Of a DNA stretch of 39,259 nucleotides, positions 5,061-9,302 are shown piece by piece. Made by a program: the position numbers and the translations under genes. Source of the DNA: an uncultured Bacteroidota bacterium (GTDB lineage: Bacteria > Bacteroidota > Bacteroidia > Bacteroidales > 4484-276). The stretch spans positions 1-39,259 of the forward strand of contig CAJATL010000009.1 of the NCBI GenBank assembly GCA_903944895.1, in the 5' to 3' direction. The notes under the pieces were generated by a model. That model had not been told where the DNA came from. It searched no databases and saw only the letters and a program-made list of their open reading frames with translations. Positions within the stretch are counted from its first letter, which is position 1. Every line of letters starts with the position of its first letter.

Positions 5061-7007
5061 TTATTGGGTTTTCACAAACTTCCCTGTAAAGGTTCCTTTC
5101 TCAGTAGAAACCTTTAAAAAGTAAAATCCGGTTTTTAAATTTGAAATGTCAATTTCGACAAGTTCGTTTAAATTTGAAATGGATTGTGAAACCATAATCT
5201 GCCCATTGGAATTGAAGATTTCGATGCCTTCGATTTTGATTTCCGGCAACGCAAACTGGATGAAACTATTGGCAGGATTTGGACTGATCGTTATTTTCCG
5301 GCCAACGATACTTTCATCAACGCCCATCGAAACTACGTTTCCTGACGAAATCAGCCGGATATCAGGATCAACTTTCAACGAATCAATCACAAAACCAGGC
5401 GAAATAAAATATTCCTGTCCCGAAAAAGTGTTGTCGAAAACGATGGTTGTGTCTTTTCCATCACCATAAAATGCCACAGGAACCGGCATCTCAAAAAACT
5501 CAACCGAAGGATGCGATTGATCCTGATTTATAGTCACCAAAACCTGACCACCCTGCAACTGGTTTACATTTACACCATACGAAGGATAACCTTCGCCAAA
5601 GTACCAGTCGGCAAAATATTCCGTCAGATCAACACCGCTTACACTTTCAAAATGGGCTTTTATATCCTGAGTTGTGGCGAAACGATAAGCCAGCATCGGG
5701 TCGTTCAGATAATTTCTGACAGCCGTGTAAAAAGCCTCATCACCAATAATCCATCTGATCTGATGAAGCAAAAAAGCAGCCTTGTGGTACGAAAGCCGTG
5801 CATCAAAAATCCGTTCAACCGAGGTGGTGTCTTCAACATACACCGAGCCACCAGGTTGGCTAACGATTGCGTTTCGTGTATTGCTTTTCCAGATGGGCCA
5901 CCAGTATCCTTCTTGCATATTTTCGAAAGAAATCCCGGTCAAATAGGTCGCAAAGCCCTCGTTGAGCCATATTTCGTGCCATGAGTTAAGTGTGATCATA
6001 TTCCCGAACCACGAATGTGCAAGTTCGTGGGCACGAAGGTCGTGGCTGTAATACCCCATAAAAGTCATGGTTTGATGCTCCATTCCTCCTCCCCAGGAAA
6101 ACTGGGCATGTCCGTATTTTTCATTTTTAAAAGGATAGGGTGTAAAAAGCTCGCTGAAAAGCTCAATCATTTCGTTGGTATTTGCCGATTGTTCGACAAT
6201 CGTTGCCGAGTCTTCGGGAAAAACATAATTCAGAATTTCGACAGGTTGCCCCGAAACATTGGCAAATTCGGAGTATTGCGCATAATTGGTTATTGCGATG
6301 GCCACATGATAGTTTGCAATAGGATACCGGTGTTTCCAGTGAAAAGTTTTGTAATTGCCTGCTGCAATTTCCGAAACCAGCATTCCATTGCTGGCAACCC
6401 GATATGCTGACGGGGTTTTAACAAAAATATCAATCGAATCAATTTTGTCGGTGATGTCGTTCTTTCCCGGCCACCAATCCTTCGCTCCGTATGGCTCGGA
6501 CAAAGTCCAGATAATGGGAACTCCGTTATGAACATCTTTGATAAACGAGCCAAAACCTGCGCCCTGAGGCGGAATGCCCTGATAAAAAATCCTGACTGAG
6601 TCTGTTGTTCCAGGAGAAATTGTAGTTCCAAGAGAAATTGTCAAATTTTCATCAGCCGAATGGGTGTAATTTACAGGCGAACCCCTGAAAATCACCGAAT
6701 CAACCTGGAGCGATTGTGCCAGTTCAAAATCGAGTGCCGAAATTTCATTCTTTATTGTCGTAAAACAGGTGCTCACGTTTCCTTTAATGTACAAAACAGC
6801 CGGATCGACCTCCCAATAAAAACGCGAGTAGGTAACATTGAAGTTGGTTCCGGTGGCTCTATGAGTAATAATGCCAGTTTTGTAAAAGGCTTTTTTATCA
6901 GTTTTTGCAATCATCGAAGTATTATCTTCGTAATGCTTAATTTGAGACCAGGCGCTAATAAAAATAAGCTGTAAAAATAATCCAAACAAAAATTTTAACC
7001 TATTCAT
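5061..7007 (-). CDS. Secreted M1 family metallopeptidase with T9SS signal
   Basis: A 648-residue zinc aminopeptidase of the gluzincin M1 family, exported and delivered by T9SS. The signal peptide is about 1-21. The exopeptidase motif is GGGMEH (307-311 region), zinc ligands are H327 and H331 of HELAH, and E350 in NEGFA lies at the usual HExxH-x18-E spacing. All catalytic residues are present. The C-terminal 75 residues from SPNPANS form a type A sorting domain ending GKFVKTQ. The usual C-terminal HEAT-like domain of long M1 enzymes is absent, as in other short bacterial M1 proteins. Peptide specificity is unknown. The gene stands alone. Confidence 0.9.
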   Translation of the reverse strand: MNRLKFLFGLFLQLIFISAWSQIKHYEDNTSMIAKTDKKAFYKTGIITHRATGTNFNVTYSRFYWEVDPAVLYIKGNVSTCFTTIKNEISALDFELAQSLQVDSVIFRGSPVNYTHSADENLTISLGTTISPGTTDSVRIFYQGIPPQGAGFGSFIKDVHNGVPIIWTLSEPYGAKDWWPGKNDITDKIDSIDIFVKTPSAYRVASNGMLVSEIAAGNYKTFHWKHRYPIANYHVAIAITNYAQYSEFANVSGQPVEILNYVFPEDSATIVEQSANTNEMIELFSELFTPYPFKNEKYGHAQFSWGGGMEHQTMTFMGYYSHDLRAHELAHSWFGNMITLNSWHEIWLNEGFATYLTGISFENMQEGYWWPIWKSNTRNAIVSQPGGSVYVEDTTSVERIFDARLSYHKAAFLLHQIRWIIGDEAFYTAVRNYLNDPMLAYRFATTQDIKAHFESVSGVDLTEYFADWYFGEGYPSYGVNVNQLQGGQVLVTINQDQSHPSVEFFEMPVPVAFYGDGKDTTIVFDNTFSGQEYFISPGFVIDSLKVDPDIRLISSGNVVSMGVDESIVGRKITISPNPANSFIQFALPEIKIEGIEIFNSNGQIMVSQSISNLNELVEIDISNLKTGFYFLKVSTEKGTFTGKFVKTQ

Positions 7008-7153
7008 AATGTAATTTTAATGTAAAAATAATACTCCGTAAAATCCTTGATAATCCAGATATCTCGTATCTTTCAAGCCTGTCGGTTTTACAACAAATGA
7101 AAAAAGAATTCGTCCTCTTTGCATTAAATAAAATTAGTTAAAAACAAAATTTG

Positions 7154-7161
7154 TAATTTTG
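7154..7161 (+). promoter_or_regulatory. Putative Bacteroidota -7 box upstream of bactofilin gene
   Basis: TAATTTTG matches TAnnTTTG. It lies about 65 bp before the start at 7226 and no good -33 TTTG is found at 19-21 bp. An alternative pair is TTTG at 7150-7153 with TAAATTTA at 7171-7178. The exact promoter is uncertain. Confidence 0.35.
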
Positions 7162-7225
7162 TAAAATTATTAAATTTACTGCAAATTAATTAACTCTTTT
7201 AAATCACTTTTGAATTAAAGAAAAT

Positions 7226-7846
7226 ATGTATGAAGCAAACCAGAATGGACGTGAGGTAAATCTCACTATCATAATACAAGGGACGGAGGTTACTGGTGAT
7301 TTGTCAACTTCAGATGACATTAGAATTGATGGAAAGTTTTTCGGAAATATCGAAACAAAAGGAAAACTTGTCATTTCCAAACAAGGTTATGTTGAAGGAA
7401 TTGTAAGAGGAACTGATATTCTGATAAATGGAAAAGCAAAGGGGGATTTTCAGGTTGATAATAATTTTCACCTCTCCCCCGAAGGAATTTTTTCAGGATC
7501 GGTCGAAACCAGATTCATTAATATTTCGGAAACCTCTATTTTTGATGGTACTTGTGTTATTTCACAAAACAAAAAGCCTAATCAATTCAAACTTAACAAA
7601 GATAAGGTTTATTCAAAAAAAACAAATCCGTTAGTAAAGAATCAGGACAAATATTTCGATAATGGAATAGCCGGGTCAGACCATCAAACCGAAACAGAAA
7701 ACGACAAAAGGCCCGCTTACTTTCTAAGGGATGAACAAGAAAAGGAGCAAAGTGAAGAACAAATCAAAGAAGCATTGTCTGGAAATGGGGGTAAAAAAAT
7801 ATCCCTCATTAGCAGCAAAATTAGTCAGATAGAATTTATTAAATAA
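7226..7846 (+). CDS. Bactofilin (polymer-forming cytoskeletal protein)
   Basis: A 206-residue bactofilin, a family that polymerises without nucleotide into filaments through a right-handed beta-helix. The core is about residues 12-115, with the expected periodic pattern: TIIIQGTEVTGDL, DIRIDGKFFGNI, ETKGKLVISKQGYVEG, DILINGKAKGD. The tail from about 120 is charged and probably disordered, a likely partner- or membrane-interaction region. It ends 30 bp before the actin-like gene in the same direction, suggesting co-transcription and a joint scaffold role. Bactofilins are known to organise envelope growth, stalks or chromosome-partition proteins in other bacteria; its role here is not shown. 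Confidence 0.88.
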   Translation: MYEANQNGREVNLTIIIQGTEVTGDLSTSDDIRIDGKFFGNIETKGKLVISKQGYVEGIVRGTDILINGKAKGDFQVDNNFHLSPEGIFSGSVETRFINISETSIFDGTCVISQNKKPNQFKLNKDKVYSKKTNPLVKNQDKYFDNGIAGSDHQTETENDKRPAYFLRDEQEKEQSEEQIKEALSGNGGKKISLISSKISQIEFIK

Positions 7847-7876
7847 AGCAAATTATTAATTATTAATTACTTACTT

Positions 7877-8929
7877 ATGGAAAAATCATTTATTTTCCCA
7901 AGCGTGTTTGAAGAAGATTATCGGGATTTTGAAAAAGTAGCTGATAGTTTTTTGGAGGCGATGAGAATTGTTAACTTTAAAGACAAAAGTTTTATTGTTG
8001 GTGAATTGGCATTAAAAGAAGGCCACTCACCACACAAGTTTTTGAATAGCTCTGCTGAAGATATTGATTATCAATTGCTTGGATTGATTGGGCTCATTAT
8101 TGCCACACAAGGAACTTACAATAAATTAATTCTTACAGTCGGCTTTCCTTTTACAACCTACCAACCATACAGAAGTGGTGCTATTGAGTTTTTTAAACGT
8201 TCCCACGAGATAGAATTTGATACCAGAACTCTTGGGGGTACTGGTACCGAAAAAGTTAGCTTCACCGTTCAGGAAGTAGATGTAATGTCGGAGATAGAGG
8301 GATGTGTTAGTTCGATTAGAAACGGCCCTTTGAAAGAAAAGGACAATTTTTTAATTGCCAGTTTGGGTTATGGAACTTTTGAATTAGCACTTTCATCACC
8401 AGGAGGTTTGATTTACCGTACAACACATAGTGCCCCAGGTTTGATGTATGTTGTTAACAGGCTTAAAAGCGACCTTGAGAAAAAATATTATCTTAGTTTA
8501 TTAACTGAACAACAATTAGAACGTGCATTTCAACGCGGCAGCATGATCATAAACCGCAGAGATACCGATTTGCGCGAACTTAGGTCGAAGGCATTAAGAT
8601 CCTACTATAATGAGGTTATTTCGCCATCAATCAGGAAGAAAATCTCGGATGAAGACTTCTACCGTGCACAGAAAATTTACCTGGTTGGCGGTGGTGCAAT
8701 GTACAACGAGATTGTTGAGTTTTTCAAGGAAGAATTTGAAGGCGTGTTAAAAGTAATCGTTAATCCTGATCCAAATCTTGCTGCCAGCAAAGGATATTGC
8801 CAACATTCGGTCGAAATGGCGAACAGCAGAATAAAACCTATGGACGAAAAAAGTAGCTACACATGCGTTGGGCTGGATTTGGGAAACAACAATACTGTTA
8901 TTACAGTAAATAATGAGTTTTTTCTTTAA
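7877..8929 (+). CDS. Actin/ParM-like ATPase-fold protein, apparently circularly permuted
   Basis: A 350-residue protein with the signatures of the ParM/Ta0583-like actin group in a permuted order. The N-terminus begins at the FPS strand (FIFPSVFEED, 5-14), which in this family normally follows the phosphate-1 loop. Next come an ILTVGFPF strand (about 93-100), a phosphate-2-like loop SLGYGTFE (162-169) in which the usual Asp is Ser162, and an adenosine motif LVGGGAM (269-275). A NPDPNLAASKGY segment of the subdomain-2 end follows. Phosphate-1 GLDLGNNNT (332-340) then appears only 10 residues before the stop. The reading frame is clean through this region. The gene lies 30 bp after bactofilin. 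Filament or ATPase activity is inferred, not shown. Confidence 0.8.
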   Translation: MEKSFIFPSVFEEDYRDFEKVADSFLEAMRIVNFKDKSFIVGELALKEGHSPHKFLNSSAEDIDYQLLGLIGLIIATQGTYNKLILTVGFPFTTYQPYRSGAIEFFKRSHEIEFDTRTLGGTGTEKVSFTVQEVDVMSEIEGCVSSIRNGPLKEKDNFLIASLGYGTFELALSSPGGLIYRTTHSAPGLMYVVNRLKSDLEKKYYLSLLTEQQLERAFQRGSMIINRRDTDLRELRSKALRSYYNEVISPSIRKKISDEDFYRAQKIYLVGGGAMYNEIVEFFKEEFEGVLKVIVNPDPNLAASKGYCQHSVEMANSRIKPMDEKSSYTCVGLDLGNNNTVITVNNEFFL

Positions 8930-9302
8930 ACCCCCCTCATTATTACGCAATTCAAACGTTTGAAAATTATGATTTTGAATATTATTAAATTTTTAATTGA
9001 TTGATGATGATTAAATTAGGATGATTTAGCATAAGTAATCCTAATTTGTCATAGCTCAATGAATTCGACATTAAACAACATATTATTAGGACGTTACAAA
9101 ATTACAGTTTTAAGACCTGACAATGCCCGAAAAAAGTTAATCTCAACTTTCCCGGGCATTTTTTAATGCTTAATTGCAAAAATATTTTCTTCATTTCAAA
9201 AGCCATCCATACAACATCGAATCAGAGATTGAAAATGAATTATGTTGCTCATTCTTTAAAACAACTATTTTGGTAAAACCTGAAATACCGAAATACAGGG
9301 AA
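8930..9302. other. Intergenic region after actin-like gene
   Basis: No credible ORF was found before the preferred start at 9303. A strong terminator lies at 9122-9164, about 190 bp past the stop codon. The transcript therefore either has a long 3' UTR or a separate small RNA is made between them. The region is very AT rich, and no second actin fragment is seen after the stop. Confidence 0.5.
9122..9164 (+). terminator. Rho-independent terminator
   Basis: AATGCCCG (9122-9129) pairs with CGGGCATT (9153-9160), with an inner AAAGTT/AACTTT stem and a trailing T-run. It most likely ends the bactofilin/actin-like transcript. Confidence 0.8.

Follow-up and report, generated by a model that had tools for sequence, protein, structure and literature searches.

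The gene and its layout

The locus described here raises the question of whether an actin can be circularly permuted in nature: does its actin-like protein truly carry at the C-terminus the phosphate-1 segment with which such proteins usually begin, or has an error of gene calling or assembly made an ordinary actin look that way? To our knowledge, actin-fold proteins have been described with the phosphate-1 hairpin first. The window (the whole stretch of 39,259 nucleotides that was analysed, from an uncultured Bacteroidota bacterium) contains an ORF, starting with ATG, whose product (cp-actin) has the motif FPS at residues 7–9 and the phosphate-1 motif GLDLGNNNT at residues 332–340, with 10 residues between the latter and the stop. 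This layout, including the bactofilin gene 30 bp to the 5' side, is just as the original prediction had read it. The features are as follows, counts out of 40 referring to the full-length members of the family described below.

7226–7846, + strand: bactofilin gene, directly upstream of the cp-actin gene with a 30 bp gap (Pfam Bactofilin, PF04519, E 1.6e-22)
7877–8929, + strand: circularly permuted actin-like protein (cp-actin), 350 aa (ORF; Pfam ALP_N 9.1e-09; PHROG 691 1.2e-29; actin fold)
7880–7900, + strand: first strand, residues 2–8, running into the FPS motif; strand 3 of the canonical order, now N-terminal (P8 and S9 invariant in 40/40; model residue 1 on residues 19–23 of Ta0583, pCBH ParM and Dh-cParM1)
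8291–8293, + strand: Glu139, candidate catalytic Glu (invariant in 40/40)
8360–8383, + strand: phosphate-2-like loop SLGYGTFE, residues 162–169, without the usual Asp (HMMER alignments against the Asp of MreB and DnaK; S/G/N in 40/40)
8687–8695, + strand: adenosine-loop motif GGG271–273 (invariant in 40/40; aligned to the GGG of MreB)
8831–8860, + strand: linker, residues 319–328, between the helix that closes the canonical order and the relocated hairpin (lower-confidence stretch between helix 299–318 and strand 329–335)
8861–8911, + strand: relocated strand pair, residues 329–335 and 339–345 (DSSP on the AlphaFold2 model; block pLDDT 65 for 321–330, 91 for 331–340 and 74 for 341–350)
8870–8896, + strand: phosphate-1 motif GLDLGNNNT, residues 332–340, C-terminal (G332, D334, G336, N337 and T340 invariant in 40/40)

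Upstream of the ATG the frame remains open for only 10 codons, and no D.G...T is present in these. The native family profile, run against the window's genome at E up to 1, gave the cp-actin gene as its single match, that is, no second family member or remnant, in agreement with the earlier claim that no actin remnant comes after the stop. A Pfam ALP_N search of the same genome gave no match at E up to 1; it is insensitive here, since the protein itself passes the cut-off. The genome also encodes its own MreB (E 1.2e-126).

Predicted fold

An AlphaFold2 model of cp-actin, made from an alignment of 27 rows (A1), has the two-domain actin fold (pLDDT 89.1, pTM 0.89), and the top Foldseek ranks are occupied by pCBH ParM, Ta0583 and Alp7A. 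With VIA-align the best match is Dh-cParM1 of Desulfitobacterium hafniense (PDB 8x1i; Z 28.9, rmsd 2.6, 311 residues, model 1–326 on chain 23–369). The same fold is found in pCBH ParM (6ixw and 6izr, Z 26.6–27.1) and in archaeal Ta0583 (2fsj; Z 25.5, rmsd 2.6, 290 residues, model 1–314 on chain 19–325). MreB, MamK, CorM and BeeR share the superfamily fold at Z about 21–25, and their colinear matches run from model residue 1 to no further than about residue 320. A homologue (L016) modelled without an alignment reached only pLDDT 40 and pTM 0.32.

The model superposes colinearly on the ParMs, Ta0583 and MreB from about their residue 17–23 onward (the first aligned residue in CorM and BeeR is 59), and the chain starts that are left out of these alignments correspond to the stretch which the C-terminal hairpin would supply. 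According to the original prediction this hairpin should fill the place of the first strand pair. Strands were indeed predicted at 329–335 and 339–345 and the remainder of the chain is colinear, as anticipated; the position of the modelled hairpin (329–345) in the S1–S2 place of the actin fold is our inference, the coordinates not having been inspected. Confidence in the hairpin is also uneven, pLDDT being 91 at 331–340, only a moderate 74 at 341–350, and 65 at 321–330. Among the 27 rows of alignment A1 the linker (319–328) is longest in the window and in two other loci, L028 and L029.

Rotation tests against family models

The permuted order was assessed by placing residues 325–350 before residues 1–324 (rotated cp-actin), with a control, made for the window's protein alone, in which the same 26 residues were reversed. 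In its native order cp-actin is matched by Pfam ALP_N (PF17989) above the cut-off (36.1 bits, residues 3–139) and by PHROG 691, a partition protein family (104.5 bits, E 1.2e-29, residues 4–313), but these matches begin only at columns 17 and 25 of the respective profiles. The first 16 and 24 columns, which are thereby missed, are those in which canonical members have their first strand pair and phosphate-1 loop. The rotated protein scores 46.1 bits with ALP_N and is matched from column 1, as against 36.7 bits (+0.6) from column 16 for the reversed-tail control. With PHROG 691 the rotated protein scores 115.7 bits (+11.2) from column 5, and the control 107.7 bits (+3.2).

Five further members, for which no controls of their own were made, behaved similarly with ALP_N (48.5 to 59.1, 40.7 to 44.4, 50.8 to 60.0, 34.7 to 42.8, and 39.7 to 47.7 bits). 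All six members tested thus gained 3.7 to 10.6 bits on rotation and their matches started at column 1 rather than at columns 17–21, so that the rotated order is preferred by this model, as had been proposed.

Other comparisons were less informative. When rotations were scanned with hhalign against three proteins, namely the genome's own MreB and two others that match MreB_Mbl (by eye DnaK- and FtsA-like), none was preferred. In profile searches of the PDB the rotated order improved the matches to DnaK (8w1m, E 0.021 to 0.003) and MreB (7zpt, 0.0086 to 0.0036) and worsened that to Dh-cParM1 (0.00063 with the native profile, 0.0035 with the rotated one); this comparison is not clean, the rotated profile having nine rows and the native one 27. 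A phmmer search of the PDB with the single cp-actin protein gave one weak match.

A family with the permuted order

The family was collected at 42 loci, which are spread over 39 genomes or MAGs and specify 40 full-length proteins, the window's included; these proteins are 34% to 99% identical to one another. The two nearest named relatives of cp-actin lie on MAG contigs and are 55% identical to it. Within an even draw of the phylum, 22 of 394 other genomes possess relatives; the figure is 31 of 244 for the class of G205, and 1 of 58 for close relatives of the window's genome. A single-sequence scan of genome contigs, the one search that went beyond the phylum, confirmed two loci, those on the MAG contigs. 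Fragments in two genomes, G394 and G541, were excluded from the set.

In all 40 full-length members the motif G.D.GN..T is C-terminal, lying no more than 30 residues from the stop in 39 of them and 49 residues from it in the other. The stop-to-stop frames contain no D.G...T within their first 250 residues in any member (0/40), although three members of genus g112 have a second string of this kind near residues 261–268. Two shorter sequences, an interrupted copy (G041) and a contig-edge fragment (L131), likewise have the motif near the C-terminus. The recurrence of the same C-terminal motif in 40/40 members means that it cannot be put down to chance, and the expectation that homologues would keep the permuted order, without an N-terminal phosphate-1 motif of their own, was met throughout the family.

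Three members or loci deserve separate mention. The exceptional protein L121 (G561) has a longer C-terminal tail, its motif ending 49 residues before the stop as compared with 6–23 in the others. The interrupted copy, L049 (8420–9459, G041), which is the one relative found among the 58 close-relative genomes, comes from a genome of the same order as the window's; it has no bactofilin nearby and its genome gave no bactofilin match. Thirdly, a region in G121 (L075, G121:C1:1707098-1707226), in an open frame of 352 residues, matches only columns 290–334 of the rotated profile, and might belong to another actin-fold protein.

This rotated profile, built from nine sequences (A2), gave 25 strong matches in 23 of the 395 Bacteroidota genomes searched, all of them starting at columns 12–26. 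The low starts among these reach into DNA upstream of the gene, in some cases through a stop, and in seven genomes the missing first columns were matched separately, where the gene ends on its 3' side. Among the best five candidates per genome (A2, E 0.001), none of the 395 genomes gave a relative in canonical order. The contig-edge fragment of G394 and the short match in G121 are further A2 matches.

Outside chromosomes, tblastn (E 0.01) revealed no relatives in plasmids or phages, and a motif scan of viral contigs yielded none that could be confirmed. Matches in a viral structure library were to actin-like and Hsp70 folds; their aligned ranges are not given, and they carry no information on order.

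The family, then, is one of ParM-like, ALP-type actin-fold proteins in which the phosphate-1 segment (S1–S2) is C-terminal in every full-length member and whose genes are usually linked to a bactofilin gene.

Active site

The phosphate-1 residues D334, G336, N337 and T340, together with Glu139 and GGG271–273, are invariant in 40/40 members. We take Glu139 to be the equivalent of the ParM/MreB Glu. Where MreB and DnaK have their phosphate-2 Asp in the HMMER alignments, the family has Ser in 35 members, Gly in four and Asn in one. Mutation of the corresponding Asp of ParM, D170, is said to block ATPase activity and to stabilise filaments. The absence of the phosphate-2 Asp suggests that ATP hydrolysis is altered and slow.

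The bactofilin neighbour

Bactofilins are nucleotide-independent, non-polar and typically membrane-associated polymers, according to the part of the source available (PMC12448750), and their genes often adjoin those of functional partners, for example M23 peptidases (PMC10945521, likewise available in part). Beside the permuted actins a bactofilin gene on the same strand occurs within 1.5 kb in 32 of the 42 loci, representing 19 of the 22 groups (20 genera and two MAGs). It lies upstream in three loci (the window, L028 and L029) and downstream in 29, and in L030 the stop of the actin gene overlaps the start of the bactofilin gene (TAATG). No linked bactofilin was found in groups g112 (0/3), g147 (0/6) and g35 (0/1, the broken G041 copy); at one of these loci without a linked bactofilin, L047, just 1,454 bases of downstream sequence could be inspected.

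An all-against-all comparison of ORFs of at least 80 aa from 23 loci showed bactofilin to be common to ten groups, and three other clusters to be common to three groups each. The ORF picking had missed genes in L032, L033 and L037, which are high in G+C, and bactofilin was found there later. Five other neighbours identified through Pfam have no common theme: a TPR protein (L048), pirin, an aldehyde dehydrogenase, a Tyr-tRNA synthetase and a sortilin-like protein with a secretion-sorting tail. The TPR-repeat protein of L048 (10513–11643, family f65) is encoded in the interval that separates the permuted actin from the bactofilin, a place taken in L046 by an ORF of about the same size.

Two bactofilin matches were obtained in the 7.17 Mb genome of the window, one of them being the cp-actin neighbour. 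Each of the five genomes with linkage that were searched (this one, G378, G360, G308 and G205) has at least one further, unlinked bactofilin; the last four have two or three bactofilin genes apiece, G205 giving four matches in three frames, two of them linked. The partnership of actin and bactofilin is not obligatory, because in seven of the g112 and g147 genomes the only bactofilin is an unlinked one, and in G041 there is no match at all.

Three genomes of genus g159 possess two permuted actins, each with its own downstream bactofilin: L033 and L037 (G205), L129 and L130 (G253), and L122 and L123 (G569). Between the two sets the actins are 0.56–0.60 identical and the bactofilins only 0.15–0.32; the bactofilins of the second set are down to 0.30 identical among themselves. 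Over 496 pairs the identity of the actins correlates with that of the linked bactofilins (r 0.81), a correlation which common descent alone could give. To our mind the persistence of the linkage despite a differing gene order, upstream or downstream, is the stronger sign of selection.

A partition system?

The resemblance to ParM brings to mind a type II (ParMRC) partition system. The 470 small ORFs near the 42 loci formed no BLAST cluster present in more than three groups. ParR evolves fast and could escape BLAST. Repeats in window positions 7000–9300 comprise two two-copy families only, both inside the two genes, and no iteron-like or parC-like array was seen there or in L028 (5200–7400), the only two loci inspected for this purpose. 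As no widely common small neighbour gene emerged and, in these two loci, no repeat array, the cp-actin locus has little of the appearance of a type II partition system, with the reservation that a fast-evolving ParR could be missed by such tests.

Interpretation and alternatives

That cp-actin is a true circular permutation of an ALP/ParM-type actin we regard as very nearly certain. There is strong support for the new termini lying in the strand 2–3 turn, and for the old ones being bridged by a linker of about 10 residues. The permutation likely arose by duplication, fusion and trimming; no intermediate was found.

Our reading of the function goes further and is put forward with less assurance, as the somewhat favoured one: the permuted protein would be a chromosomal, ATP-binding actin that forms a stable polymer and works with a dedicated bactofilin, where ATP binding, polymerisation and partnership are all inferred. 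Presumably ATP would be bound in the customary way, by the phosphate-1, phosphate-2 and adenosine loops. Without the phosphate-2 Asp hydrolysis may be slower, which would give polymers that are stable instead of dynamically unstable, and the new termini would point outward from another face of subdomain IA. The dedicated bactofilin might then anchor or organise cp-actin in a two-polymer scaffold for positioning or for work at the cell envelope. The conserved bactofilin neighbour fits the proposal that the permuted termini offer a new face for attachment, although there are no data on attachment itself. A more specific version, in which the two proteins together build one composite cytoskeleton of two polymers, the bactofilin is docked by the free ends in the strand 2–3 turn, and the loss of the Asp made a dynamic actin long-lived, is offered as a conjecture that may well prove wrong.

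How far do the same observations permit other explanations? One, that a mis-called start, a frameshift or an assembly error lends a normal actin a permuted appearance, has nothing in its favour; no motif precedes the start codons in their frames, all 40 full-length proteins (42 loci, 39 genomes or MAGs) have the same order, and on the strength of this uniformity we reject it, as the original prediction had already done from the one gene for a mis-called start and a frameshift. We give it practically no credence. Alternatively the hairpin, free-ended and on a linker of lower confidence, could in principle swap into the empty S1–S2 site of a neighbouring subunit, such that polymerisation would proceed by strand exchange. 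The monomer was predicted with a pTM of 0.89, which speaks against such donation in trans, and we know of no precedent for it in actins; it seems highly improbable.

If the permutation is accepted, the protein might still not form long filaments. Like FtsA or PilM it could be an ATP-switch adaptor, a nucleotide-binding protein by which the bactofilin polymer is recruited or regulated, in keeping with the loss of the phosphate-2 Asp from 40/40 members, with bactofilin being the most widely common neighbour, and with the failure to see a common small ParR-like gene (BLAST, 42 loci) or a parC-like array (two loci). Such a role sits less well with the invariance of Glu139 and the GGG loop, or with the best structural matches, which include proteins solved as filaments (pCBH ParM, CorM and BeeR by entry title, and Dh-cParM1 by the abstract of a paper available in part, PMC12270681). 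We consider the adaptor unlikely without dismissing it. The changed termini could also be a neutral accident in an otherwise ordinary chromosomal actin-like filament: the fold and most key residues are canonical, and a uniform order is what a single ancestral event with subsequent descent would leave. Against this, the order has been kept down to 34% identity and no canonical sister was found in the phylum sample, but neither point proves that the permutation matters, and we are left thinking such an accident rather improbable.

Comparison with known proteins

The preferred reading, a permuted and polymer-forming actin with a bactofilin partner, may be set beside what has been described. Dh-cParM1 resembles cp-actin in being chromosomal and in its ParM fold; it differs in having the canonical order (first aligned residue 23) and in sitting with ParR, as far as the accessible part of its description shows (PMC12270681). 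The main text of that paper, to the extent available, has no mention of permutation, Bacteroidota or bactofilin. In pCBH ParM and Ta0583 model residue 1 falls on chain residues 21 and 19, so that their first strands come first; also unlike cp-actin, the former is plasmid-borne and the latter archaeal. The operons of bactofilin and the M23 peptidase LmdC are alike in uniting a bactofilin and a functional partner in a two-gene unit, but there the partner is a peptidoglycan hydrolase and here it is an actin-like protein (PMC10945521, in the part available).

No natural permuted actin was present among the matches listed in the open-access literature, by which subscription papers are mostly not covered. 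In CIRPIN the permuted pairs reported from predicted structures number in the thousands (PMC12667903, available in part). The word 'actin' does not occur in the available portion of its main text, and its data could contain the cp-actin family unnamed.

Implications

A natural and widely inherited permutant would show that the actin fold and, presumably, its nucleotide cycle tolerate a cut beside the phosphate-1 loop, and would in this sense be an experiment by nature on which segments of actin have to be contiguous. A search that relies on an N-terminal DxGxxxT will overlook the permuted members. By inference, the bactofilin neighbour suggests a direct link between the nucleotide-driven and the nucleotide-independent bacterial cytoskeletons.
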